A DNA stretch of 64,000 nt from Arabidopsis thaliana (taxonomy: Eukaryota > Streptophyta > Magnoliopsida > Brassicales > Brassicaceae), in contig NC_003074.8 of assembly GCF_000001735.4 (NCBI RefSeq), forward strand, positions 7,998,101 to 8,062,100. Reading direction: 5' to 3'. Made by a program: the position numbers and the translations under genes. Positions 22,275 through 50,567 of this stretch are shown piece after piece. The notes beneath the pieces are model-generated. The model did no database searches. It saw only the letters and a program-made list of their open reading frames with translations, and was not told where the DNA came from. Positions within the stretch are counted from its first letter, which is position 1; each line of letters starts with the position of its first letter.

Positions 22275-22421
22275 ACAAGTTCTTGAATTGTGATGAACCA
22301 TCCTTTTTTGTATCTACTTTTGCTTTTAGAAACCTTGTTCAAGCATTGAAGCTTATATGTATAATTGCAGGGTCTTATTCAATAAAATGTGAATCTTCCT
22401 TTCCATCTTTTACTTGTGTTT

Positions 22422-22868
22422 TCTGTAATCACCAGAAGTCACTGCAAGAACACTTTCCTTGACGAATGAAATGAAACCGGTTGTTGTCTCTTAGAACGAT
22501 TTCTCTGTTGTATACTTCGGATGCAAATTTGTGCCTTTGTTTGAGCTAATGAGCCCAAAGACCATTGCAAGTTTCTCGCTGTGGCTGCTAAGCATAAAGA
22601 TCTTCTCATCTACATCCATCAGAAGTTCAAAACATTACCAAGATCAGGAACATGACCTAAGTTGCTTGCTCTATGGTGAGCATTGCTCCAATTTTTGGCA
22701 TTTCAGGGTGAGACTCATCTCCTGAAGTGAACTCATGGGTCTTACCTCGAATCTGTATTAAACCCTTAGCGTTTGCTCGCTCAGCGTTTCCTGCCATAGC
22801 CATTGCTCCTATAGCCGCTGTCCAAGCTGAGACATCTCTGTTTGTCAAACTATTGAAAATCGACATTG
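22422..22868 (-). pseudogene. Truncated copy of the YS1 C-terminal region
   Basis: This segment is a diverged duplicate of the YS1 3' end (23898-24862). It keeps MSIFNSLTNRDVSAWTAA and GKTHEFTSGDESHPEMP on the minus strand. It has lost ~460 bp corresponding to about 24305-24768, a further ~50 bp near 22528 (the part carrying the CSDCH and DNNRFHY segments), and the rest of the gene. It cannot encode a working PPR protein. Confidence 0.88.
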
Positions 22869-22869
22869 C

Positions 22870-23360: not shown

Positions 23361-23830
23361 TCAGCTGCACAATTGGACAGTACAGGCAACGGCTTGTGCC
23401 CAGCATTTGAGTCTAGCTTTCACATCATCCGGATTATCACCTGTAACAACAACAAACTGATAACATTTAGACTTCATATATCACAGTCCATTCCAATCAC
23501 TGAAATTCTTGTTTAACACTAGCACTCAGCAACAAACCAATTACATAATTGAAATCAGAGTAGATCAAACTTAGATCACCTAATCAATCGACGGAAAATA
23601 TGAGATATTTACACACGACGGGACTAGAGATCTTCCAATTGGCAATTGGAGTGATGGTGTATGCTTATCGTCTAAATTTTTTTGGCTCATTGAATAGCAA
23701 AGCTCTAAAGCAGGTAAAGTCTTGCAGAGCGCAGGGATCTCGTCGTAGTTGAAACCAAAGCCTAGATCTAAACAACCTTTGAGAACTTCGAGATCGTCAT
23801 CCGTCAAACTCTAGGATCTCGTCAGATCGT
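23360..23830 (-). pseudogene. Decayed DUF1685-family gene fragment
   Basis: On the minus strand, 23810-23640 reads LTDDDLEVLKGCLDLGFGF-YDEIPALC then TLPALELCYSMSQK, the signature of the plant DUF1685 family. A second piece at about 23442-23362 reads GDNPDDVKARLK then WAQAVACTV and LCS-stop, the usual C-terminal exon of that family, after an acceptor-like GTTACAG. The first piece has a TAG stop just before LTDDDL, a frame change near the NWKISSP segment, and no clean donor at the expected exon end. The 5' part of the gene is missing. Some gene models may attach this to YS1, but I see no reason to. Confidence 0.75.
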
Positions 23831-26434: not shown

Positions 26435-26697
26435 TGTTGGCTCTTACTGATTCAGTATCTTAATTATAAAAGTTCGTCACTTTATAATCAAAAAATTCAA
26501 AAAAAAAAAAAAAAAATTTGGTTACAAAAAAAAAAGCTCTACATTGTTCATAAACAGATACTTAAGAAAAAAAATAACAGAGGACCATTACTGGATTTGA
26601 ACCAAACTCGGAACATAACTGATAATAATTGAATGCCATTTTCTATTACTGTTAAGTAGAACTCTTTGTATGTTTAAAGGTTGTACGAAAGGGATTT

Positions 26698-27750
26698 CTA
26701 TATATCCATCGTCCTCTCCGATAATGTATACCATGTTCTTGCTGATCTTATCATCATTAACAATTTAACATTACAACACAAGACGACTTTCTTCTCCTCC
26801 TCGAAATAGAGACTTGAGAAGATTCGAACACAATTAAAGCGAGTGTCTAAGTGCAGTCTCCACAACAATGTAGCATCAGTATCAATGTTATTGGTTATCC
26901 ATATCTCCATCTTTGGTGTAGCACGGCTCCAATATAATACTGAGAGTTGTTCTTCTCTAACAAATGATAAAACCATGTGACCAACATTTTCGAAATGCGG
27001 AAGGCATAGACGTTTAAATCTCTCTGTTTTAAAGTCAAACATAAGTAAAGATCTAGAATTGTCTTCAACATCATCAACAAGCCAGTAAATATTTCCCTTC
27101 AAAGACACGCGACAGCAACGTCCTAAATAGTTGTGATTGACCAAAGAGTCGTGATTGACGTCATCAATAACCCTCCATTTATCAGAGATAAACTCGTATA
27201 TTTCAAACCCTCTTTGACGCGGTGATGATTTGTAATCGTTACTTTTCCACCTCCACAAGATTTTGTAGCTACGGCAAGATTCGTTGTTTTGGATATATCC
27301 TAGAGCAAAGCTGGAGTAGACTCTCCCGTAATCAACTTTGAATTGGATCCAATGGGTTTCCCCCAAACACGGATTCCAAACCACGTGTCTATTGTCCTTG
27401 GTGGTGCATAACAACAAACCATCGCAGTGAAGAACTTGGACTATATCAACTTGTTCTGAATTAGAATGGGAATCCTTTAAGCCAAGTGCATCTTTAAACT
27501 CTATAGATGGAGGAGTAACGTTGAGATTGACGCTTATTTCTTTCAACATGAGAACTAGAGACTCCTTTGGTGCTTTACGAAAGTGCTTCTCTGTGAATCT
27601 TCGGTCTTTCAATAAAGCGTTCCATTGTCTACAAGTCGATCGTAATCGTTTGAGAGATGTGGCTGGAACCCTAGAGAGTATTTCCTCTACCAAATCCAAA
27701 GGAAGATTCGACATCATCAATGGTTCCCTATTTGTGATCTGATCTCCCAA
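26698..27750 (-). CDS. F-box/FBA protein with altered C-terminus
   Basis: 350 residues. The F-box is at about 14-55 ([18 protein letters not shown]), then an FBA domain ([57 protein letters not shown]). Compared with its three neighbours, an extra ~8 bases at about 26760-26768 shift the frame after VVLCCNV. The last ~22 residues are therefore unrelated to the family end, and the old C-terminal coding sequence (FNYVPSL type) survives only as DNA down to about 26600. The gene may still make a working SCF adaptor because the F-box and most of the FBA domain are intact. I recall it as At3g22700. Confidence 0.85.
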
Positions 27751-27865
27751 CGAAGAAGAAAGACTCCGTCGTCCCTGTAAACAGAGAGATTAGGGTTTTG
27801 TTTTGTTTTTCTCACGTTTGCCCTAAACCATTATTTGTTTTTATAAAACAGAGGTTTTAGGCCTT

Positions 27866-27884
27866 AGCCCACAACTCTTGGGCC
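27866..27884. promoter_or_regulatory. Site II pair upstream of the F-box gene
   Basis: AGCCCA (27866-27871) and TGGGCC (27879-27884). The same block recurs upstream of the F-box genes at 30861-32033 (32156-32168) and 33241-34359 (TGGGCC near 34690), so the duplications carried the promoter. Confidence 0.5.
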
Positions 27885-28101
27885 GATTGAACTTCACGTA
27901 TTTCACGCTATGTAGAAAGGAACCATAAATAAGGTACCAAAACCTATCCATAATTAAATTATTCACGTATTAAATAACCATTTTTTAAAAATTTGTGTAT
28001 TAAACAACATTTTTACCACTAAAAACTCATCATCGAATCAAATTAATTTTTATTTTTGGTTAGAAAAAAAAACTCTACATTGTTCAAAAACAGATACTTA
28101 A

Positions 28102-29264
28102 TTAAGAAAAAAATAAGAGATGACCATTATAGATTTGAACCAAACGCGGAACATAATTGAAAATAGATGAATACCATTTTTTATTACGGTCAAGTAGAAC
28201 CCAATGTATGTTTATAGGGAGTAGGAAAAGGATTTCTGTGTAATATCCATTGTCCTCTCCGATAATGTATACTATGTTCTTGCTGGTCGCATCATCATTA
28301 ACATTACAACACAAGACAACTTTCTTCTCCTTGTCGATATATAGACTTGAGAAGACTCGAACACAATTACGTGAGAAGACTTGAGTGTGTAAGTGCAGTC
28401 TCCACAACAATGTAGCATCAGTATCAATGTTATTAGTTATCCAAATCTCCATCTTTGATGTATTACGAGTCCAATGTAATATTGAGAGTTGTTCTTCTCT
28501 AACAACTGATAGATCCATATTACCAACATCTTGGAAATGCGGAAGGCGTAGACGTTTGAATCTCTCTGTTGTAAAATCAAACATTAGTACAACTCTAGAA
28601 TTTTCTTCAACATCATAAGCAAGCAAGTAAGTATTTCCCTTCAAAGACACTACTTCCTATAACGAATTCGTGATTGACGTCATTAAGAACTCTCCATGAC
28701 GAATCAGAGATAAACTCGTATATTTCAAACCCCAAATCTCTTTGGCGCGGTGATGATTTGTCATCGTAACTATACCAACTCCGCAAGATTTTATAGCTAC
28801 GGCGAGATTCGTTGTTTTGGATATACCCTAGACAAAACTTGGAGACGTATCTCCGGTAATCAACTTTGAGTTGGATCCACTTGGTTTCCCCCAAACACGG
28901 ATTCCAAACCACGAGTCTTTTGTCCTTGATGGTGCATAACAACAAACCATCACTACTTGTTGAGATTGACTTTCACCGGGCAAACCCTATGCTCCTTCAA
29001 CATGAGAACCATAGACTCCTTTGGTGCTTTACTAAAGTGCTTCTCAGTGAATCTTTCATCTTTGAATATAGCGTTCCATTGTGTGCAAGTAGATCGTAAC
29101 TTTTTCACAGATGTCGCCGGAACCCTAGAAAGTATTTCCTCGACCAAATCTGGCGGAAGATCGGGCATCGTCATATTTTCTCTTTGTGATCGGATCTCCC
29201 AAGGAAAAAGAAATCGGCTACTCGGTCTCTCAAAATAAAAATTAGGGTTTATTCTTTCTCCCAC
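28102..29264 (-). pseudogene. Broken F-box/FBA gene
   Basis: Clearly a copy of the neighbouring F-box genes but split over three reading frames: F-box part 29264-28953, FBA middle 28945-28613, FBA end 28650-28102. Compared with the copy at 30861-32033, about 90 bp are missing near 28950 (between the MLKE...VNLN segment and HCDGLLL) and about 20 bp near 28665 (just before VSLKGNTY). The two losses change the frame. The C-terminal end ([10 protein letters not shown]) is still clean. Gene catalogues may list it as an intron-containing F-box gene (I recall At3g22710), but the gaps coincide with family-conserved sequence, so I read it as a pseudogene. Confidence 0.75.
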
Positions 29265-29284
29265 ATCTTATAAGGATTCTACTA

Positions 29285-29930
29285 AATTTACTTCCCTTTT
29301 TTTTGTGTGGATAATTTACTTAAAAAGTATTTAAAAATTACATCTATGTATCCAGAGAATTGGAAAGAAATAATCACTCTGATTTACAAAAAAAAACAAA
29401 GATTATTTTAAATATAATCTAAAATATAACCAGTCCTATATGACTGATCTATGTATATGTCTCTCAATAATATAATAGGATATTTATTTTAAATTTTATA
29501 TTAAATTGGAAGATTTATAATTAATATCTTTTAAATCATATCAAAATATATTTTCAATATATTCAATTTTATTAATTAGATATATTTGTTTATATAATAT
29601 TGATTTAGTATTATTGTAATTTTAACTAATAATAATTAAAATAAAATTCATATATAATTTAAACTCATGAATAATAAACTTGTTAGATAGCTAGTTTTAT
29701 TTTATGATTTGTAATAAAATAAAATAAAAATTATAGTATAGAAACTATATAATTAACCTTTTAAACTACTTAAGTTTGGAAGTTTAGATATATATGTTAA
29801 CATAATGTTAAAATCTAATTCGTTGAAATATTTTACACGTGTCAAAATCTTATTAAGATACTCAGATTGAAAATTATACTTTATATAATAAGATATATAA
29901 AACATGTTACGTACGACCAAAAATTATCGC
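29285..29930. other. Extremely AT-rich tract
   Basis: About 640 bp that is very largely A+T, with no reading frame and many short TATATA and TTTAAA runs. The segment TTTTACACGTGTCAAAATC near 29830 recalls text I associate with non-autonomous Arabidopsis Helitrons, but I cannot define ends. It lies exactly between a broken F-box gene and a broken HMT3 fragment. Confidence 0.4.
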
Positions 29931-29934
29931 AAAC

Positions 29935-30285
29935 AACAATTGCTTGAATTTTGATGCTGCGGGAGATTCGCCTGAGAGAACTTTAGCAATGGTTCTGATG
30001 GTGTTTTAGAGTAGTCCGCCAACACAAAATCTTTGAGGTTTCTTTCTTTGCCTTCTGCACTAATGCATAAAAAAAACCACCAAAATTACTCAAAAATCCA
30101 TTCATGTTCAGACCATCATAGAGAGAAAGCTAGTTACTTCCGTTCACAAGGTAGAAAACAGAGGACAAAATAACCCTAATTTGGTTAAAGTTTATATTGT
30201 ATCTTAATTACACAGTCGCAAGGGGACCCTTGGAAGTGAACAAGAACCATGCTGGAATATCATAGTCTTCCTTCCTCAAGACGAT
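29935..30285 (-). pseudogene. HMT3 relic 1
   Basis: The minus strand carries remnants of HMT3 exon 7 (near 29940-30060, compare 35105-35275), a trace of exon 6 (the 'NGLNKKW' region near 30105) and part of exon 5 (near 30220-30285, compare 35650-35715). Large parts are deleted and the exon 7 copy has a stop-creating change in GVF (TTTTAG on the plus strand). No function is expected. Confidence 0.8.
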
Positions 30286-30339
30286 CGGCATATGGTTAAG
30301 AAGCAATGAGTCCTTAGTTTAACTATGCAAGTAAGAAAG

Positions 30340-30660
30340 AGTGTCTTGTTGGTTTAATGTCTAGCTAAGCAAAGTTGCTAGGAGTTGTTGTTGACGTCTA
30401 AAGTGATGTCTAGCTAGTACTAGTAGTTGCTAAGTCTAGAGTGCAAGTAATTGAGTGGAATCAAGTAGTATAAGTATGTGTTGTGTTGTAAGAACCATCT
30501 CTTGATCCAATAAACAAAATGTAGACAATTAAAAGACTTCTCTCTTCTCTCTTAGTTACAAAACGTTGTGTTCAATCTAAGAACTAAAACAAGAACAAGA
30601 GACTAAAGAGAGATTGATGTTCTCTTTGTGTTTCTGTTAAAACAGAGAGACAAGAGATAA
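30340..30660. mobile_element. Candidate solo LTR-like fossil
   Basis: This stretch interrupts the HMT3 relic and the F-box 3' flank. Its composition resembles a Copia-type LTR: a TG-starting end, a polyadenylation-like CCAATAAAC, and a run of direct-repeat A/G-rich text at the right. I could not find a clean target-site duplication and see no internal coding region, so it is at best an old, broken remnant. Confidence 0.3.
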
Positions 30661-30860
30661 TAGCTTAATAAGGCGCTGGCCTCAAAGAAGCATGAAGAGG
30701 TCAGATGTTCAACAATCCAAACAAAAAATCGAATCATAAACATATCCAAAAAAAAAAAAAAAACCATTCATTAAATTATTCAAACGACATTGTCTTCAAA
30801 AACAAAAACTAAGAAAGAAAAAAAAGGACTAGTTTCTTTCGTTTCTTTTACGAATCTACC

Positions 30861-32033
30861 TTACTGGATTTGAAACAAACTCGGAACATAATTGAAAATC
30901 AATGAGTACCATCTTGTAGTATGGATAAGTTGAAGCCTTTCTATTTTTATAGATTTTACGAAAGGGATTTCTATGTAATGTCCATCGTCCTCTCCGATAA
31001 TGTATACCACTTTCTTGCTGGTCTCACCATCTTTAACATTACAATACAAGACGACTTTCTTCTCCTCGTCGAAATATAGACTTGAGAAGATTCGAACACA
31101 ATTACATTGACTGTCTAAGTGCACTCTTTTCCACAACAATGTAGCTTCAGTATCAAAGTTATTGGTTATCCATATCTCCATCTTTGATGTAATACGGCTC
31201 CAATTCAATACTGAGAGTTGTTCTTCTCTAACAGATAGATCCATTTCACCAACATCTTGGAAATGCGGAAGGCATAGACGTTTCAATCGCTCTGTTGTAA
31301 AATCAAACATTAGTAAAAATTTAGAATTTTCTTCAATATCATAAGCAAGCATATAAGTATTTCCCTTCAAAGACACGCCACTTCTTATTATGGAGTTGTG
31401 ATTGACGACGGAGTCGTGATTGACGTCATCAAGAACCCTCCATGATGAATCAGAGCTAAACTCGTATATTTCAAACCCCAAACCTCTTTGTGGCGGTGAT
31501 GAATTGTAATCGTAACTATACCAAGTCCACAAGATTTTATAGCTACGGCAGGATTCGTTGTTTTGGATATACCCTAGAGCAAATATGGAGACGTATCTCC
31601 GGTAATCAACTTTGAGTTGGATCCATTTGGTTTCCCCCAAACACGGATTCCAAACCACGAGTCTATCGTCATTGGTGGTGCATAACAACAAACCATCGCA
31701 GTGAAAAACTTCGGTTATCACGACTTGTTCTGAATTAGAATGGGAATAACCAAGTGCACCTTTAAAGTCTACAGATGGAGGAGTAACTTTGAGATTGACG
31801 CTTATTGGAAAAACCCTATACTCTTTCAACATGAGAACTCTAGACTCCTTTGGTGCTTTATGAAAGTGTTTCTCGGTGAATCTTCGGTCTTTCAATAAAG
31901 CGTTCCATCGTCTACAAGTCGATCGTAGTCGTTTGAGAGATGTGGCGGGAACCCTAGAGAGTATTTTCTCTACCAAATCTAAAGGAAGATCCGACATCAT
32001 GAATGGTTCTCTATTTGTGATCTGATCTCCCAA
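30861..32033 (-). CDS. F-box/FBA protein
   Basis: Intact 390-residue member of the cluster. The F-box is at about 14-57 ([18 protein letters not shown] ... [15 protein letters not shown]). The FBA domain has all landmarks: [77 protein letters not shown], and the end [11 protein letters not shown]. It would act as the substrate receptor of an SCF ubiquitin ligase; the substrate is unknown. It is the most complete copy and the best reference for the two damaged neighbours. Site II motifs lie at 32156-32168. I recall it as At3g22720. Confidence 0.9.
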
Positions 32034-32424
32034 CGAAAAGAAAGACTCGGTCTCGTCCCTGTAAACAGAGAGATTAGGGTTTTGTTTTGTTTTTTTCTTT
32101 TCACGTTAGCCCCTAAATCAATATTTATTTTGATAAACAAGAGGTTTTAGGCCGAAGCCCATTGGGCCGATTACCCTTCCTATATTTCAACTCTTCCTCG
32201 ACTCCATAAACCTTTTTTGTTTTTTAACTTTTTTTAGTTAAAGTGTATTCAGTTGAAAAACATAGTACAAAGGCTATGACTTTTCTAGGTGGTTTAATTA
32301 GAAAAAGTAGTTTGAGAGAAAGAAGCTTAAACAAACATATGCTTAAGAAGATATAGGGAGTAGCTCTCATTAAATGACTAAGACCGACTCGGCCTCTACA
32401 AACCCAACGTGCATGACCACTAAT

Positions 32425-32760
32425 CGAAAACTCATTGGTGATGTGATGGCTCCAATGGTGTTTGGAGTATTCCAACAACACAAGATCTTCCCACTCATTC
32501 TCTCTTTGACTTGTGCCTTAATGCATTAACACTTGAAATCAGATTTTTTTTAATCTGTTATGGTTATCAAGTTTGAAACTCATAAATCCATTCTTGTTCA
32601 GACCACCATAAGACTTCCCCACTGTTTGATCAGACAATGAGTCAATGACAAGTTTGCGAAAGAGAAAAAGCTAGTTGCTTCTGTCGCAAGGTACAAAACA
32701 GAGGGAAAAGGCCCACATTTCCTTGGAAGTAAACATAACCATGCCGGAATGTCAATAACT
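32425..32760 (-). pseudogene. HMT3 relic 2
   Basis: Minus-strand remnants follow the HMT3 exon order. Exon 7 is near 32440-32530 (compare 35150-35285), the exon 6 region is near 32590-32670 (compare 35355-35430), then the intron and exon 5 pieces lie near 32670-32760 (compare 35440-35700). Many deletions and substitutions are visible; it is non-coding. Confidence 0.8.
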
Positions 32761-32764
32761 CCTT

Positions 32765-32915
32765 AAGGCTGCTTCATTGCATTACACAACAGATGTATAT
32801 ATCCCCGAATCAAAGAAAAGTACATGAAATAAGAGCTATATATATGATTCACCTGTTTCTTTCGAGAAATCAAACACCTAGCGTGGCTTTGATAATACTT
32901 GCTCAAGTTGGCTAA
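32765..32915 (-). pseudogene. Relic of the YS1 5' end
   Basis: The plus-strand text from GCTTCATTGCATTA to CTTGCTC parallels the YS1 antisense at about 26077-26352 (GCTTCGTTGCATAA ... CTTGCTCTGG), with the segment CCCGAATCAAAGAA nearly unchanged and an internal loss of ~120 bp. It sits directly next to HMT3 relic 2, which places a PPR copy in the duplicated block. Confidence 0.7.
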
Positions 32916-33240
32916 CTTAAACGGTCCAAATTTTCAGCCCATTCTTGAGGACCAAGTCTCACCTAGGTGTACCAAACATTAAGTGCGTGATATCTCTCCA
33001 TACTAGCCATGAATGAGAAATTGAGAAGTGTCGTTTAGCAGCCTTTGCGGTTGAGTGAGAGAGAAGCGAAATCCACAAAAGAGAAAGTAACAAATAAAAG
33101 GTGATATAAGAAAAGGTAAAATAATAGATCAAATCTTAAAACTAATCAAGCGATAGTGTTTGCAAAAACAAAAACGAAGAGAGAAAAAAAAAACAGAGAA
33201 CTCGGTACAAAAATTACGTCCTTGCTTGCATTGAGTAGTT

Positions 33241-34359
33241 TCATTCTTTTATAATGCATCCACCTTCCTCGATTTGAACCAAACTTGGAACATAATTGAA
33301 AATAATTGGATATCCCCACACTTGGTAACTAGATTCTACTAAAGGGATTTCTGTGTAGTATCCATTGTCCTCTCCAATAATGTATACTTTCTTGTTGCTT
33401 TTCTCAAAATTTTCATTATAACACACAGCCACTTTCTTTTCTTCGTCGACTAGATAACTCGTCAAATACGGACAATAATCACCGCGAATGGGTATATCCA
33501 CGGTAAAAGATTTGCTCCACATCAGTACATCTTCAATAATATTGGTCACCCACATCTCCATTATCTTTGATGTACTATCACTTTGACTTAACAGTGAGAG
33601 TTGTTTTCCTCCAACAACTGATAGAGCCATCTTAGACACATCCTGAGATGGTGGAAGACACAGACGCGTAAATCTTTCTGTTGTAAAATCGAAGCAAAGC
33701 AAGAGTCCATATTTGTCTTTTTTATCAGACGCAAGCCAATAAGTATTTCCCTTGAAAGAAACGCCAATATGTGATGCTATGTGGCAATCAAGAGCGACGA
33801 GATCAAGAACCCTCCATGAATCAGAGCTAAACTCATAGATTTCAAACTCATCAACTCGGCCAGTTGGTGAATTGTGACGATCCCAACACCTCAAGATTTT
33901 GTAGATACGGCCATATTTGTTTTTCTCGTATCCTAGAGCAAACCTAGAGTAAATGTTTTTGGGCCATCGGATCCACCTTGTTTCCCCCAAACACGGGTTC
34001 CAAACCACTATTCTATAGTCCATAGTTGTACATAGCAATAAACCATCACAGTGACAAGCTTCATGTATATCGACTTCTTCTGAATAAGGAGGATAATTCT
34101 TTAGGTTAAGTGCACCTTTAAACTCTATAGACGGAGCAGAAACGCTGAGATTGGCGATCATTGGACAAACGCTATACTCCTTCAACATGAGAACCAGTGA
34201 CTCCTTTGGTGCTTTAAGAAATTGCTTCTTGGTAAATCCCGGGTTTTTAAATAAAGCGTTCCATAGTTTGCAAGTAGATCGTAATCGTTTGAGAGATGTG
34301 GCTGGAACCCTAGAGAGTATTTCCTCTACCAAATCCAAAGAAAGATCGGACATCATCAT
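33241..34359 (-). CDS. F-box/FBA protein
   Basis: Intact, 372 residues. The F-box is at about 4-45 ([20 protein letters not shown]), then an FBA domain ([96 protein letters not shown]). It is the most diverged of the four cluster members, so probably an older branch. It is expected to act as an SCF substrate receptor. Its promoter flank, with TGGGCC near 34690, resembles those of the other copies. I recall it as At3g22730. Confidence 0.9.
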   Translation of the reverse strand: MMMSDLSLDLVEEILSRVPATSLKRLRSTCKLWNALFKNPGFTKKQFLKAPKESLVLMLKEYSVCPMIANLSVSAPSIEFKGALNLKNYPPYSEEVDIHEACHCDGLLLCTTMDYRIVVWNPCLGETRWIRWPKNIYSRFALGYEKNKYGRIYKILRCWDRHNSPTGRVDEFEIYEFSSDSWRVLDLVALDCHIASHIGVSFKGNTYWLASDKKDKYGLLLCFDFTTERFTRLCLPPSQDVSKMALSVVGGKQLSLLSQSDSTSKIMEMWVTNIIEDVLMWSKSFTVDIPIRGDYCPYLTSYLVDEEKKVAVCYNENFEKSNKKVYIIGEDNGYYTEIPLVESSYQVWGYPIIFNYVPSLVQIEEGGCIIKE

Positions 34360-34379
34360 TGCTTCTCTTTGTTTGTGAT

Positions 34380-35095
34380 CTAATCTCCCAAAGAAGAAGA
34401 AAGGTCTTTGACTCTTTGTGAATGCTATTAATTCTTCTTCTTCTTTTGCTTATGGTTACATAAGTATATATAAGAAAATCTTAAAAGAAGATAAACACCA
34501 AAAAATAAATCCTAATCCTAACAAGATTTAGTAATATCATGTCAAGCTAAATTCATAAAACCAAAACCATAAATCATAGCCGATCATGAGCCCATCAGTA
34601 AACAGAAATTAGGGCTTTGGGTGTTTTTTTGCACCTAAACCAATTTTTGACCATAAACCGGAAGTTTTAGACCGAACCCCAAAGTTCTTGGGCCAATTAA
34701 CATATTTCAACTCCTCGGCACCAGACAAGGTATCCCTATTATATAGCCTCTCCTTATCTTGGATTATTATTACGCAGTTTGTTGATGAGCGTCCATGTCA
34801 TAGCAAAGAAGTCGAGTATAAGAAAAGCTTATTTATTCCTCATAGCTTACAAAATTAATACAGCCTATAATCACTTTTATATATTCGTACAGCACAATAA
34901 TAAAAATATGCTTACTATAACATCAAATTATCGTTTAAACTCCATTATTATCATACGCTAATTACACAGTTGTCTCTAACATAGTTTACCATTATTTATA
35001 GTTTCAACATATTAGTAGATTACAGAACTACGCTTGCGTTATTGTACATTTTAAACTCCTTCCTGACATCACAAGCATAGAAATTCACCGTTGAC
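34380..35095. other. Intergenic between F-box gene and HMT3
   Basis: Promoter of the minus-strand F-box gene (to about 34750), then AT-rich DNA and the HMT3 3' UTR. No gene seen. Confidence 0.5.
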
Positions 35096-35099
35096 AAGT

Positions 35100-37610
35100 C
35101 TATTGCCCGAATTTGGGTTTTGATGCTGCAGAAGGTTCGTCGGAGAGAACTTTAGCAATGGCTCTGATGGTGTTTGGAGTAGTCCGACAACATCCTCCAA
35201 ACAGAGAAGCTCCTGCATCTCTCCATTTACTCACGTACGACACAAAATCCTCCTCTGACTCTCCCTCTGACTTCTGCATTAACACATTAAAAAATCTCCA
35301 AAAATCAGAATTGTAATTTGTGTTTTACTAGAATTTGATATAACGAACACTCACAATCCATTTCTTGTTCAGACCGTCGTAGACTTCCCCGCTGTTTGGG
35401 TATACAACGATTGGTTTGCGTGTCATCTGGTAAAAGAAATGACCAGTTGCTTCAGCCGCAAGGCACAAAACAGAGTAAAAGAAAAAACCCTAATTCCATC
35501 ATTGTTTATACATACCTGGCGCAAGGAGATAATTAAAGCATGAATGTATCTTGGTGCAGTACAATTGATTCCAATGGCCACCACGTTCTTGCATGAATCT
35601 GCCACTTTCGCACATTCTACAACTGAATCTCCTCGTGGCACACTGACTCCGTCCTTGGAAGTGAACGAGAACCATGCCGGAATATCGATATCTTCCTCCT
35701 CAAGAAGATCCGCATAAGCCTATGATTCGTGAAAAACGATATATTTATACAGTAACATCATGTAATATTATCACAACTACCAAAATGCAACCACTACTAG
35801 ACTAACAGTACTTAATAGTTAGTTAAGAACTTTATTTGGTTAGACTGTTTTTTTGTCAACCACGTCAATGCTTGAACTAGGGATATAATACAACGATGGA
35901 CTAACGAAAGCTACTAGAATAGAATACATGTTCAGTTAAAAAGAAAATTTTAGATACCTCTGCTTCGAGCTTATTTGGAATAGTCTCGAATGCTATTAGG
36001 TCGGCTCCAGATTTTGCTAAGATTTGAACTCTTCTTCTATGGAAATCCTTTAATGTCTCCTTACTCACAGAATCTCCATATATCCCACTGCAGAACAATT
36101 ATGAGGAATAAAATTAAATTTCTTTAACTGACCAAAACTTTTGTTATGACTATGATTTTTCCAATTTTATACACAAATGTAACAGACAAAAATGACTAGG
36201 ATCGATCAAAGAACCTGTATTCGGAGCCGTCAGCGAGATAAGCTCCATAGCTACCAACGGAAGCTGCGACAAGAATTGGTCTCCGGGAAGCTTTTCCAGC
36301 GTAGGCGAAATCCCATGAACCCTTGGTGCATCTGTTGTAGAAAATCTCACGTGCCTCGTACGTGATTTCAACGCTCCTTCTAAGTAAATTTTCTGCTTCT
36401 CCCACCGATAGACCTTTTGCCACAAAACCTTGTATCGTCGCCTGTATAATAAATTAATTTGTTTAAGTACCTTGATGCATTTTGAAACTAATTTCCTTTT
36501 TTTTACCACATTTACTTCAAGCAAACAAACCAAATCAAACTATTTAGTTAATATAGGCCAAAGTACCTGGTAAGATGCTGTTATGATGATATTTGCTCCA
36601 GATTCAAGGTAATCCAAGTGCACCTATTAGAAGAAAATAATATAATTGTCTGTTACAAACATATTTCTGATATGTTATTATATATTTCTGATTGTAGTTG
36701 TTACTTATTAGCAGAAAAAGGTAATAAAAATCTCTGGGAACAATGGAAAAGAAAAGTGGAAAATAATTACTTTGATTTCTATAGAAATTAACTAGTCAAA
36801 CTAAATTCAAGAAAAATACATATATATATATATAGGTTAAATTTCCTTAAAAGTGTCGTAAATGGTGTAGCCTGTAATTTGTTGTTATTTTTTGTTTCCT
36901 TTGTTTTCTTTGAATTCTTCTTTTGTACTCTACAGTCTACACGTAAGACCCATCGTGAATCAATTAAAAGTGGTACTAGAAAAATGGAGTGATAATGTAG
37001 TAAACGTCGTGGTATGACGTACACGTTAGCGGCTCAGCTTTACTAGTTTACTACGTGGCATATTACTGTTTTTATCTACATTTATGCACTAATATAAACG
37101 GGTCGAGTAGCTCTTTTTCTACTTACTCTTGTATGCATATGAGTTTCATCCAATACATAGAACTTAAGAAAACTAAAAAAATGAAAAATGAACTCGTTGC
37201 AAAGAAATAAAACCATGTTTATAAAGTTAATGGAATCAAGAATCCAACTAAAATATGTTTGGACAAATACGTTATTTTGATGCTATTTAATCGAGTCCAT
37301 CATCCAATAACTAGATCATTCTAAATTTTGCTTAACATGAGAATTAATTTCATAGAAGAAATAAATATTTATCAACGTACGACTAAAACCATCTTAGAAT
37401 AAAAGCTATAAATTTCTACATATGTGTGACCTTTGTAACAAGGTGAGGAGAAGTAATAAGGCACTTAGCACTCCAAAGTGGATCATTGATATCAGCTCCG
37501 TGGCGCTGTAGCTCCGTCGCAAACCCTCCATCCACCACCGCATAACCACCGCACTTCTCCAAAAAATCTGTCATCAACGACGACGTTTCTTCTTTCACGA
37601 AAGATCCCAT
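35100..37610 (-). CDS. HMT3: Homocysteine S-methyltransferase 3
   Basis: Seven exons (37610-37431, 36623-36567, 36441-36215, 36087-35958, 35719-35516, 35426-35355, 35273-35100) give 347 residues, the length I recall for HMT3 (At3g22740). It starts MGSFVKEETSSLMTDFLEKC, has VVDGGFATELQRHGADIND near 25-43, and carries the zinc ligands in GINC (exon 5) and GGCC (exon 7, SLFGGCCRTTP). The enzyme methylates homocysteine to methionine using S-methylmethionine, completing the SMM cycle. All junctions keep frame. An AT-rich intron 1 of ~800 bp separates exons 1 and 2. Two decayed copies lie at 29935-30285 and 32425-32760. Confidence 0.96.
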
Positions 37611-49583: not shown

Positions 49584-50567
49584 CTAATTAAGTTGCACTA
49601 GACTTGGAACATAAGACCACACAATTGGGTAACACCTTCTGTCTGATTCTCCAAGATCCACTTCTTTCATGGATCCATCCACTCCAATGATGTAAGCTAT
49701 GTAGCGCTGTATTCTGTAGCCTTTATCAAAAACAACAGCGACTTTCTTCTCCTCGTCAATGAAGAAACTCCCCAAACAAAACTGAAACTGAGGGCCAATG
49801 AGTTTTCTTATACTCACTGATAAGAACACCTTGCTGTTCCAAGACACCGCGTTGGGCTCAATCTTAGACGTGACCCAGATCTCCATCATTAATGTATCCC
49901 ACGGCTGATATAAAACAGCAAGCTGCTCGTCTCTAACATTGGATACACTCAAAGCATCTTCAGATTCAACAAACTGAAACGGAAGAGGCAAAAGTGGTCC
50001 AAATGTCTCTCTTGTGAAATCAAAAGAGAGTAAGAAAAACTCTTCGTTTGTTTCACTTGTTTCGTAATACTTCTCTTCAGCAACCCAGAAGGCATTTCCC
50101 TTGAGAGACACGCCACTATTAATAGTCCCTAATTGCCAGTCTGGAGTGACATGAAAAACCCTCCATGAATTAGAGTTAAAATCGTAGATTATGAACTCAT
50201 GAAAATGGGGTCTCAAACAAGTAATACACCTCAAGATTTTGTGGGATTTGCTGCTCTTGTCGTATCCGAGAGCATAAGAATAGCTGTCGAATTTGTTGAA
50301 CTGATGTGTGGGCTCGATTGACCGGGTATGCCCCCAATACGGGTTCCAAACCACGAGCCTAGTCTTGGCTTGGGTGATGCTGATGCATAACAATAAACCG
50401 TCGCAGTGAAAGACTTGAGATATATCATCAACTTCGTCGCCTAAGCTAATAACTTTAGCTTCACGTTTTATACATGATGATGATGATGATGATGATGATT
50501 CAACGACGTTGTTATCAAGATTGACTCTCATCAAATAAACCCTAAAATTCATCATCATGACCACCAT
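49584..50567 (-). CDS. FBA-domain protein lacking the F-box
   Basis: 327 residues, intronless. It has the FBA landmarks ([87 protein letters not shown]) but no F-box. The protein begins at MNFRVYLMRVNLDNN, which aligns to about residue 70 of the neighbouring F-box proteins, and no F-box is found upstream before TSO1. An imperfect Asp/His-type codon repeat gives an SSSSSSSS run at about 24-31. Without the F-box it should not enter an SCF complex. It may be a decaying gene, or could compete for substrates; that is inference. I recall it as At3g22770. Confidence 0.85.
   Translation of the reverse strand: MVVMMMNFRVYLMRVNLDNNVVESSSSSSSSCIKREAKVISLGDEVDDISQVFHCDGLLLCISITQAKTRLVVWNPYWGHTRSIEPTHQFNKFDSYSYALGYDKSSKSHKILRCITCLRPHFHEFIIYDFNSNSWRVFHVTPDWQLGTINSGVSLKGNAFWVAEEKYYETSETNEEFFLLSFDFTRETFGPLLPLPFQFVESEDALSVSNVRDEQLAVLYQPWDTLMMEIWVTSKIEPNAVSWNSKVFLSVSIRKLIGPQFQFCLGSFFIDEEKKVAVVFDKGYRIQRYIAYIIGVDGSMKEVDLGESDRRCYPIVWSYVPSLVQLN

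Follow-up and report, generated by a model that had tools for sequence, protein, structure and literature searches.

The block of repeated gene pieces between HMT3 and YS1 in Arabidopsis thaliana most probably arose (we put the probability at roughly two-thirds) by tandem duplication of a unit of about 3 kb with its ends inside HMT3 and YS1 and an F-box gene as the sole whole gene within. In the window, i.e., the whole 64-kb stretch of DNA analyzed here (chr3:7998101-8062100; local positions are used), two HMT fragments and one PPR fragment sit among four minus-strand F-box copies, and all of the pieces named in a previous sequence-only reading were recovered on the minus strand in the order claimed, from HMT3 through the F-boxes and relics to YS1. 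That reading had proposed duplication of whole three-gene units; tandem duplication of an HMT-to-PPR segment agrees with the parentage, order, and introns of the relics, but whole units do not, since the copies look truncated when made: both HMT relics start at exon 5, and YS1 homology in the PPR relic gives out where HMT relic 2 begins. In the best model, the positions of the breakpoints are the reason why F-boxes would have been copied whole and HMT3 and YS1 as stumps, making selection against HMT and PPR copies unnecessary.

The two parent genes flank the block. HMT3 (37610-35100, minus strand) is intact and encodes 347 aa in seven exons (37610-37431, 36623-36567, 36441-36215, 36087-35958, 35719-35516, 35426-35355, and 35273-35100), as read from the sequence and translated, and its protein yields 20 matches in the genome, confined to the HMT3 locus, HMT1, and HMT2. 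YS1 (26434-23906, minus strand) is an intact PPR-DYW gene with an ORF of 842 aa and Pfam PPR, E, E+, and DYW matches. On the same strand, HMT relic 2 (32760-32446) extends from exon 5 to the middle of exon 7 of HMT3 and HMT relic 1 (30292-29949) from exon 5 to the end of exon 7; all five non-self rows from a blastn comparison of the HMT3 region with the 64-kb window lie within these two relics, the best E values being 1.6e-20 and 2.7e-11. Parentage was tested by local-alignment scores against dinucleotide shuffles. Relics 1 and 2 scored 191.5 and 153.5 against HMT3 (maxima of 200 shuffles, 45.5 and 49, respectively) and 33.5-38.5 against HMT1 and HMT2 (shuffle maxima, 42-48). Both are HMT3-derived pseudogenes, nearer HMT3 than HMT1 or HMT2, with disabling lesions. 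Order, orientation, and HMT introns are preserved in the relics, and the retained introns indicate that the HMT relics were made by copying at the DNA level.

The two HMT relics have a nearly common cut point at the start of exon 5, as relic 1 begins at HMT3 position 35716 by blastn and relic 2 at 35693 by blastn or approximately 35704 by eye. The sequences upstream of relics 2 and 1 are similar to the rest of HMT3 only at the level of shuffles (54/100 and 95/100 as high, respectively), and HMT exons 1-4, searched in the window by tblastn, were matched in HMT3 alone and went undetected at the relics. Furthermore, both relics carry a 50-bp deletion in exon 7 (corresponding to HMT3 35242-35193), which is a loss in the relics because HMT1 and HMT2 align there ungapped, together with a 1-bp deletion in exon 6 and a lost intron-6 donor, the latter two identified by eye. 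Since the same three lesions occur in both relics, the dead stump itself was copied, contrary to the previous view of two HMT copies dying separately. Substitutions were rejected as a link between the relics: relic 1, relic 2, and HMT3 are star-like, with 56, 54, and 60 differences in 244 columns, so that the relics are no closer to each other than to HMT3 and the lesions alone join them. The relic-HMT3 distances are 0.27 and 0.26 (upper bound, 0.355), and that between the relics is 0.298 (0.228-0.382).

These features bear directly on the explanation that whole HMT-F-box-PPR units were duplicated and that extra HMT and PPR copies, perhaps dispensable, were lost piecemeal while F-boxes were kept and diversified. 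Relics in order and orientation are expected there as well, the internal deletions of the relics are true decay after copying, and the F-box end of three F-box copies (A, B, and C) is constrained; nevertheless, we regard this explanation as unlikely, given the nearly identical 5′ cut and three common lesions in both HMT relics, the immediate adjacency of PPR and HMT sequences, the lack of any trace of HMT exons 1-4 in the block, and the decay of the F-boxes themselves (A and B damaged; 3′ dN/dS near 1). In a variant, one early deletion, starting at YS1 codon 117 and reaching HMT exon 5, may have preceded the second copying, at the cost of one extra event. The common cut point supports the inference that the cuts probably arose in the duplication rather than through such a very early deletion.

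The other edge of the unit is marked by the PPR relic (32904-32771, minus strand), which corresponds to the 5′ part of YS1, with a blastn core at 32833-32771 (81%, E 1e-9) and a weak extension to 32904. Its parent positions in YS1 are approximately 26190-26082, plus a marginal 26351-26329, and the relic ends near codon 117; the outer piece (32904-32881) is itself marginal, with a score of 31 against a maximum of 30.5 (0/500 shuffles as high). A genome search with 201 relic bases returned only the relic itself and was uninformative because even YS1 was missed; origin was therefore tested by local alignment, in which YS1 scored 81 (maximum of 500 shuffles, 38) and nine other PPR loci, the best matches of YS1 elsewhere, scored 24-33.5. 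Among the 45 genome matches listed for YS1 DNA, YS1 alone starts before query base 481. The PPR relic derives from YS1, ahead of the nine other PPR loci compared, and the previous attribution of the relics to HMT3 and YS1, not other HMT or PPR genes, is borne out by the scores of 191.5, 153.5, and 81 against lower values elsewhere.

The end of YS1 homology and the start of HMT3 exon-5 homology lie approximately 10 bp apart at 32771/32760, as located from blastn ends and the sequences side by side, and both edge genes are cut at this one common joint, as in RCCX-like modules. The stretch 32771-32760 (minus strand) is the proposed tandem-duplication joint. No second PPR relic was found in the block: the gap after F-box copy C shows no PPR piece (score against YS1, 31.5; 22/100 shuffles as high), and the gap between copies B and A is at shuffle level against the 3′ part of YS1 (24; 55/100 as high), its raw score against the 5′ part, given without a shuffle comparison, being 23. 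Likewise, the stretch before copy A shows no HMT piece (score against HMT3, 39; 14/100 shuffles as high).

Repeat-like sequences adjoin and neighbor relic 1, as might be expected if fragment-capturing transposable elements had brought in the HMT and PPR pieces independently of tandem duplication. A low-copy repeat (30641-30295, minus strand) adjoining its 5′ end has partial matches at three other genome sites (72-83% in the main stretches), and an AT-rich, repeat-bearing stretch (29265-29940) extends from relic 1 to copy B, with itself and otherwise partial matches among the 42 genome matches listed; the repeats beside relic 1 were not resolvable into one element. Because its 5′ end adjoins a repeat, the cut of relic 1 may have another cause. 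However, capture is highly improbable as the source of the pieces, which come from two immediate neighbors, are collinear and on the same strand, and include introns, and a search of 26 other F-box loci and their 1.5-kb flanks gave neither HMT nor PPR hits at E 1e-3. One outside F-box locus, L019 (chr3:7901884, approximately 130 kb away), was considered as a block member and rejected; it has no HMT or PPR match, and its upstream sequence scores 44 against that of copy D (null, 48) and 51.5 against that of copy A over a short stretch, the latter a raw score without a null.

The four F-box copies, all on the minus strand, differ in state. They are of the FBA type: an N-terminal F-box (PF00646) and a C-terminal FBA_1 domain (PF07734) are present in full in the intact ORFs of copy C (32033-30861, 390 aa) and copy D (34359-33241, 372 aa). 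Copy A (27750-26698) is damaged, its FBA_1 match covering profile positions 2-125 of 162 and its frame being lost near 26763 in this genome, and copy B (29264-28102) is broken, its F-box and FBA_1 falling in different open frames. The previous reading had set decayed HMT and PPR copies against F-boxes that were kept. This contrast is weakened by the broken B, the truncated A, and dN/dS values of 0.96-1.04 among A, B, and C over the 3′ part, and it retains some force at the 5′ F-box end, where values of 0.27-0.30 indicate constraint and leave room for some selection on the F-boxes.

The F-box copies do not share one age with the HMT and PPR relics. Copy D is roughly equidistant from A-C and from outside F-box genes. 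The dS of its 5′ part to A (0.26; 0.11-0.48) and to C (0.30; 0.14-0.53) is compatible with the relic-HMT3 distances, whereas that of its 3′ part (0.67-0.76; lower bounds, 0.485 and 0.545) exceeds the relic upper bound of 0.355. As its 3′ part is older than the relics, D did not arise in its entirety together with the HMT stump, and either segment exchange or a first unit with two F-box genes is therefore required. The latter, in which a D-type and an A/B/C-type gene were present and one was lost per copy, is a compatible refinement of the best model that we consider possible at somewhat short of even odds. It would explain why the gap between D and A-C is wider than that between the HMT relics (D-C dS is 0.57 overall vs 0.26-0.27 for relic-HMT3), and it suits the tree, where D, L019, L021, and the ABC group all branch from an open multifurcation. 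However, the 5′ flank of D is homologous to that of C (score, 104.5; maximum, 53.5 in 200 two-base-block shuffles, with shuffled flanks slightly shorter), and the 5′ part of D is as near A and C as relic age allows, such that extra exchange would be needed here too. The 3′ flanks were rejected as a block marker, as C-D (71.5) is no higher than C-L019 (71) or C-L022 (72), and A-D similarity in the 3′ flanks is at shuffle level.

Copy B is likewise divided, its 5′ part being of an older lineage and its 3′ part of the A/C type in trees and in dS by part. The B-C 3′ dS of 0.133 (0.08-0.19) is younger than the relic 1-relic 2 distance, and the 5′ estimate of 0.576 is above it, although the range for the 5′ part of B (0.333-1.035) overlaps that of the relics (0.228-0.382); the comparison is rough, since it sets a codon dS against a relic distance. 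The mosaic signal in B is significant against C (p 0.003) but not against A (p 0.09). Both B and D look like mosaics with parts of differing age. Trees in conflict with block duplication were previously named as grounds for refutation, and such conflict is present in part: an ABCD clade was not recovered, and parts of D and B differ in age, yet the clade is not rejected (AU p 0.08).

Under tandem duplication with breakpoints inside the two edge genes, each single-copy, the unit would have ended near the HMT3 intron 4/exon 5 boundary and near YS1 codon 117, so that HMT3 was copied as a 3′ stump and YS1 as a 5′ stump, fused at the joint still seen at 32771-32760, and the F-box was copied whole because it was the sole complete gene inside the unit. 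The HMT stump would then have gained the 50-bp and 1-bp deletions and lost the splice donor, and the lesioned stump would have been recopied with its neighboring F-box to yield relics 1 and 2. A further step may have copied a single F-box without a detectable HMT piece, giving A and B, with a joint at 28055-28010 (minus strand), where flank alignments show the A-like 3′ flank of B meeting the C-like 5′ flank of A. The order of these steps is our inference. Meanwhile, F-box copies would have swapped segments, and such exchange is the proposed cause of the D and B mosaics.

The published variants of the "YS1 promoter" map inside F-box copy A. In the published study, natural variants in the YS1 promoter were credited with altering the YS1 light response, in connection with a photosynthesis QTL. 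Homology between A and B reaches approximately 26517, i.e., approximately 83 bp upstream of the YS1 start codon, and the reported 8-bp allelic length difference sits where copy A has 8 bp that are absent from B and C and that shift its frame. As the variants lie in copy A and the 8 bp alter the frame, the F-box array might supply the YS1 promoter, and the QTL might be due, in whole or in part, to the condition of an F-box gene that this duplication placed next to YS1; we hold this as a doubtful suggestion from the sequence. That most of the stretch holding the published variants is an F-box gene copy nevertheless bears on how the QTL is read.

The block provides a readable example of how the breakpoints of a tandem duplication can settle which of its genes are multiplied and which are left as stumps, and it cautions against inferring selective retention from F-box expansions. 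The PPR/HMT joint is additionally a datable marker for comparisons in Brassicaceae. In the literature, no paper was found that names two of the six block loci together, and no related paper was found that treats HMT3, F-box, and YS1 jointly.

Similar arrangements are described in other systems, according to the parts of the sources used here. In the human RCCX module (STK19-C4-CYP21-TNX), a tandem module is copied with whole inner genes and partial edge genes: STK19B comprises the 3′ end only, owing to the duplication, and TNXA reproduces a section of TNXB in truncated form and has a 120-bp deletion (PMC8362596). As in the present block, the partial edge genes adjoin each other between modules, and later unequal crossing-over and chimeras are described (PMC8362596). 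By contrast, the number of RCCX segments varies among people (PMC8362596), whereas the present block was read in one genome, is eroded (relic distance, approximately 0.26-0.30), and has an inner gene from a fast-drifting family. In Drosophila Sdic (Cdic-AnnX), incomplete duplication spanning two adjacent genes likewise fused the end of one to the start of the other, and tandem repeats with gene conversion and TE insertions followed (PMC3449122, PMC7475035). There the fusion became the repeated gene, whereas here the fused HMT and PPR sequences are disabled relics and the inner gene multiplied. The plant F-box superfamily is reported to evolve by birth-and-death and genomic drift, with tandem duplication as a main route for young copies, frequent frameshift or stop pseudogenes, and relaxed selection (PMC3030570). 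The present array shares tandem copying, pseudogenes, and relaxed selection with that general pattern, but it differs in that the neighboring genes left stumps at the joints, from which the mechanism of this one array is readable.

Along the minus strand, the window (Arabidopsis thaliana chromosome 3, 7998101-8062100) carries HMT3 (37610-35100), F-box copy D (34359-33241), a PPR relic (32904-32771), HMT relic 2 (32760-32446), F-box copy C (32033-30861), HMT relic 1 (30292-29949), F-box copies B (29264-28102) and A (27750-26698), and YS1 (26434-23906), and this order of genes and relics, first proposed by a sequence-only reading, was recovered by blastn and the reading of open reading frames. 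HMT3 comprises 347 amino acids over seven exons read from the sequence. In a blastn comparison of the HMT3 region and YS1 with all 64 kb, relics were confined to the gaps between F-box copies, on the parental strand; the exceptions were short hits of 21-22 bases and a separate, younger YS1 3′ fragment (22392-22869, minus strand), which lies beyond the 3′ end of YS1, near what is presumably RDM1, and comprises segments 89-97% identical with an internal gap of approximately 465 bp. A DUF1685 domain (PF07939, E 3e-23; 23583-23807, minus strand) is located between this fragment and YS1, and short stretches resembling copy D occur at 50080-50203 and 50316-50354, distant from the array.

The HMT relics are 3′ pieces of HMT3, and the PPR relic is a 5′ piece of YS1, identified as At3g22690 in PMC5680337. 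Local scores against HMT3 were 191.5 for HMT relic 1 (maximum of 45.5 in 200 shuffles) and 153.5 for HMT relic 2 (shuffle maximum of 49), and that of the PPR relic against YS1 was 81 (maximum of 38 in 500 shuffles), whereas the HMT relics scored 33.5-38.5 against HMT1 and HMT2, under the shuffle maxima of 42-48 for those two genes, and the PPR relic scored 24-33.5 against nine other PPR loci, under the YS1 shuffle maximum, which served as the yardstick in place of shuffles of those loci. The proposed parentage thus fits better than any of these relatives. Furthermore, when the genome was queried with YS1 DNA, YS1 itself was the only one of the 45 listed matches to start before query base 481; at that sensitivity, therefore, no other locus shares the part of YS1 with which the relic aligns.

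HMT relic 1 starts at HMT3 35716 and HMT relic 2 at 35693 by blastn or approximately 35704 by eye, both at the beginning of exon 5 (35719). Sequences upstream of the relics match the rest of HMT3 at shuffle level (95 of 100 shuffles as high for relic 1 and 54 of 100 for relic 2), and tblastn within the window detected no HMT exons 1-4 outside HMT3 itself. The sequence-only reading had whole HMT/F-box/PPR units duplicated and the extra HMT and PPR copies later lost; it is unlikely that two independent truncations of a gene 2.5 kb long would fall within approximately 10-25 bp of each other, with the caveat that the 5′ edge of HMT relic 1 also adjoins a repeat. HMT relic 2 begins at 32760, next to the end of the PPR relic at 32771, and a PPR-5′/HMT-3′ joint of exactly this kind would result from a tandem duplication with ends in HMT3 and YS1. 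The duplicated unit would be approximately 3 kb, with the F-box gene entirely within it and HMT3 and YS1 straddling its ends, and the inner F-box gene would have been multiplied by unequal exchange, the stumps being inherited at the joints. Unit spacings are 2.96 kb (32760 to 35716) and 2.47 kb (30292 to 32760). The A/B step probably duplicated a shorter unit, joined at 28010-28055; flank alignments with shuffle-controlled scores detected no HMT or PPR piece there.

Both HMT relics lack 50 bp of exon 7 (HMT3 35242-35193), running from GATTTTG or GATCTTG directly into TGTTG, and, as read by eye, both have an intron 6 without its GT donor and an exon 6 shorter by one A. Since HMT1 and HMT2 are gap-free in alignment across the 50-bp stretch, the relics lost it. 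A three-base direct repeat at this deletion makes independent recurrence possible, but the other two lesions make it unlikely, and the two relics, judged from their common lesions, appear to be copies of one dead stump. Substitutions among 244 three-way ungapped columns (HMT3-relic 1, 56; HMT3-relic 2, 54; relic 1-relic 2, 60) do not unite the relics and count against a single stump; if the lesions are common by descent, the second copying came soon after the first.

A tree of 15 rows, drawn from 107 genome matches, supported a clade of A, B, and C (100/100) and placed D outside it with two F-box loci elsewhere, L019 (chr3:7901884, approximately 130 kb away) and L021 (chr2:1726135); constraining A, B, C, and D as one group cost 4.3 log units and was not rejected (AU p 0.08). 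A clean block-duplication pattern fits the F-box copies badly, given the position of D and the uneven dS along D and B. In the 5′ part, dS is 0.26-0.30 for D-A and D-C and 0.576 for B-C, against 0.67-0.76 and 0.133, respectively, in the 3′ part; A-C is even along the gene (0.154 and 0.136). Differences in the 5′ and 3′ parts number 27/220 and 239/758 for D-A (Fisher p 3e-9) and 34/235 and 233/773 for D-C (p 8e-7); part of this signal is F-box domain conservation, because A-C (13/220 and 105/824; p 0.004), C-L019 (42/217 and 200/774; p 0.05), and D-L019 (40/217 and 201/753; p 0.01) likewise differ less at the 5′ end. B-C is more different at the 5′ end (47/233 and 99/813; p 0.003), and B-A yields 41/218 and 112/801 (p 0.09). 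A poorly resolved 5′-part tree grouped A, C, and D (74/73) and did not reject the ABC clade (AU p 0.16). The 5′ flanks of C and D are homologous (104.5 vs. a null maximum of 53.5); upstream sequences of L019, L021, and L022, a further F-box locus, gave 46.5, 48, and 53.5 against C as raw scores without their own nulls, and the 3′ flanks of the F-box copies showed no block-specific similarity. The most plausible reading of D and B is as mosaics, probably produced by exchange within the array. Elsewhere, C1:8766051-8836466 holds five equal-score F-box matches, three of four spacings being approximately 14.38 kb and each match having a second approximately 3.8 kb before it, which suggests near-identical tandem blocks, and the nearly identical F-box genes L025 (C3:15878645) and L028 (C2:2957564), with tip branches of 0.007 and 0.008, represent a recent dispersed duplication.

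Whole-gene dN/dS was 0.88 (0.6-1.4) for A-C, 0.65 (0.45-0.93) for B-C, 0.66 (0.46-1.0) for A-B, and 0.46 (0.33-0.62) for D-C. For A-C, B-C, and A-B, the 3′ part gave 1.04, 0.99, and 0.96 and the F-box-bearing 5′ part 0.27, 0.30, and 0.28, so that the F-box end is constrained now or was formerly; copy B is broken and copy A truncated. Some selection on the F-box genes is indicated, and it is not needed to account for HMT3 and YS1 leaving mere stumps.

A photosynthesis-acclimation QTL has been ascribed to YS1 "promoter" variants, and "F-box" occurs 0 times in the main text (PMC5680337). Upon subtraction of 7998100, SNP8025056 (window 26956), SNP8025189 (27089), and an 8-bp deletion at 8024863-8024871 (26763-26771) fall in the open frame of copy A, and SNP8024723 (26623) in its older 3′ end. 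The 8 bp are present in copy A of this genome and absent from B and C, the gap in D being longer, which supports the coordinate match and implies that the reported alleles differ in the frame of A. At 27089, a T in copy A stands against C in the other three copies, and at 26623 an A stands against T; all four have A at 26956. Quantitative complementation with a ys1 mutant in that study supports YS1 itself as causal; the copy-A stretch is therefore more likely to act as a promoter, and the F-box product may have a role.

Literature judged mostly by title or abstract yielded no account of the history of the HMT3-YS1 F-box array, although the kind of event is already known from other systems. F-box genes undergo birth-and-death with relaxed selection (PMC3030570), and the Drosophila Sdic cluster originated by incomplete duplication spanning two adjacent genes (PMC3449122, PMC7475035). 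The human RCCX module has the same anatomy as the HMT3-YS1 block: STK19B is a 3′ end only, left by duplication, and TNXA is a truncated copy of one section of TNXB (PMC8362596).
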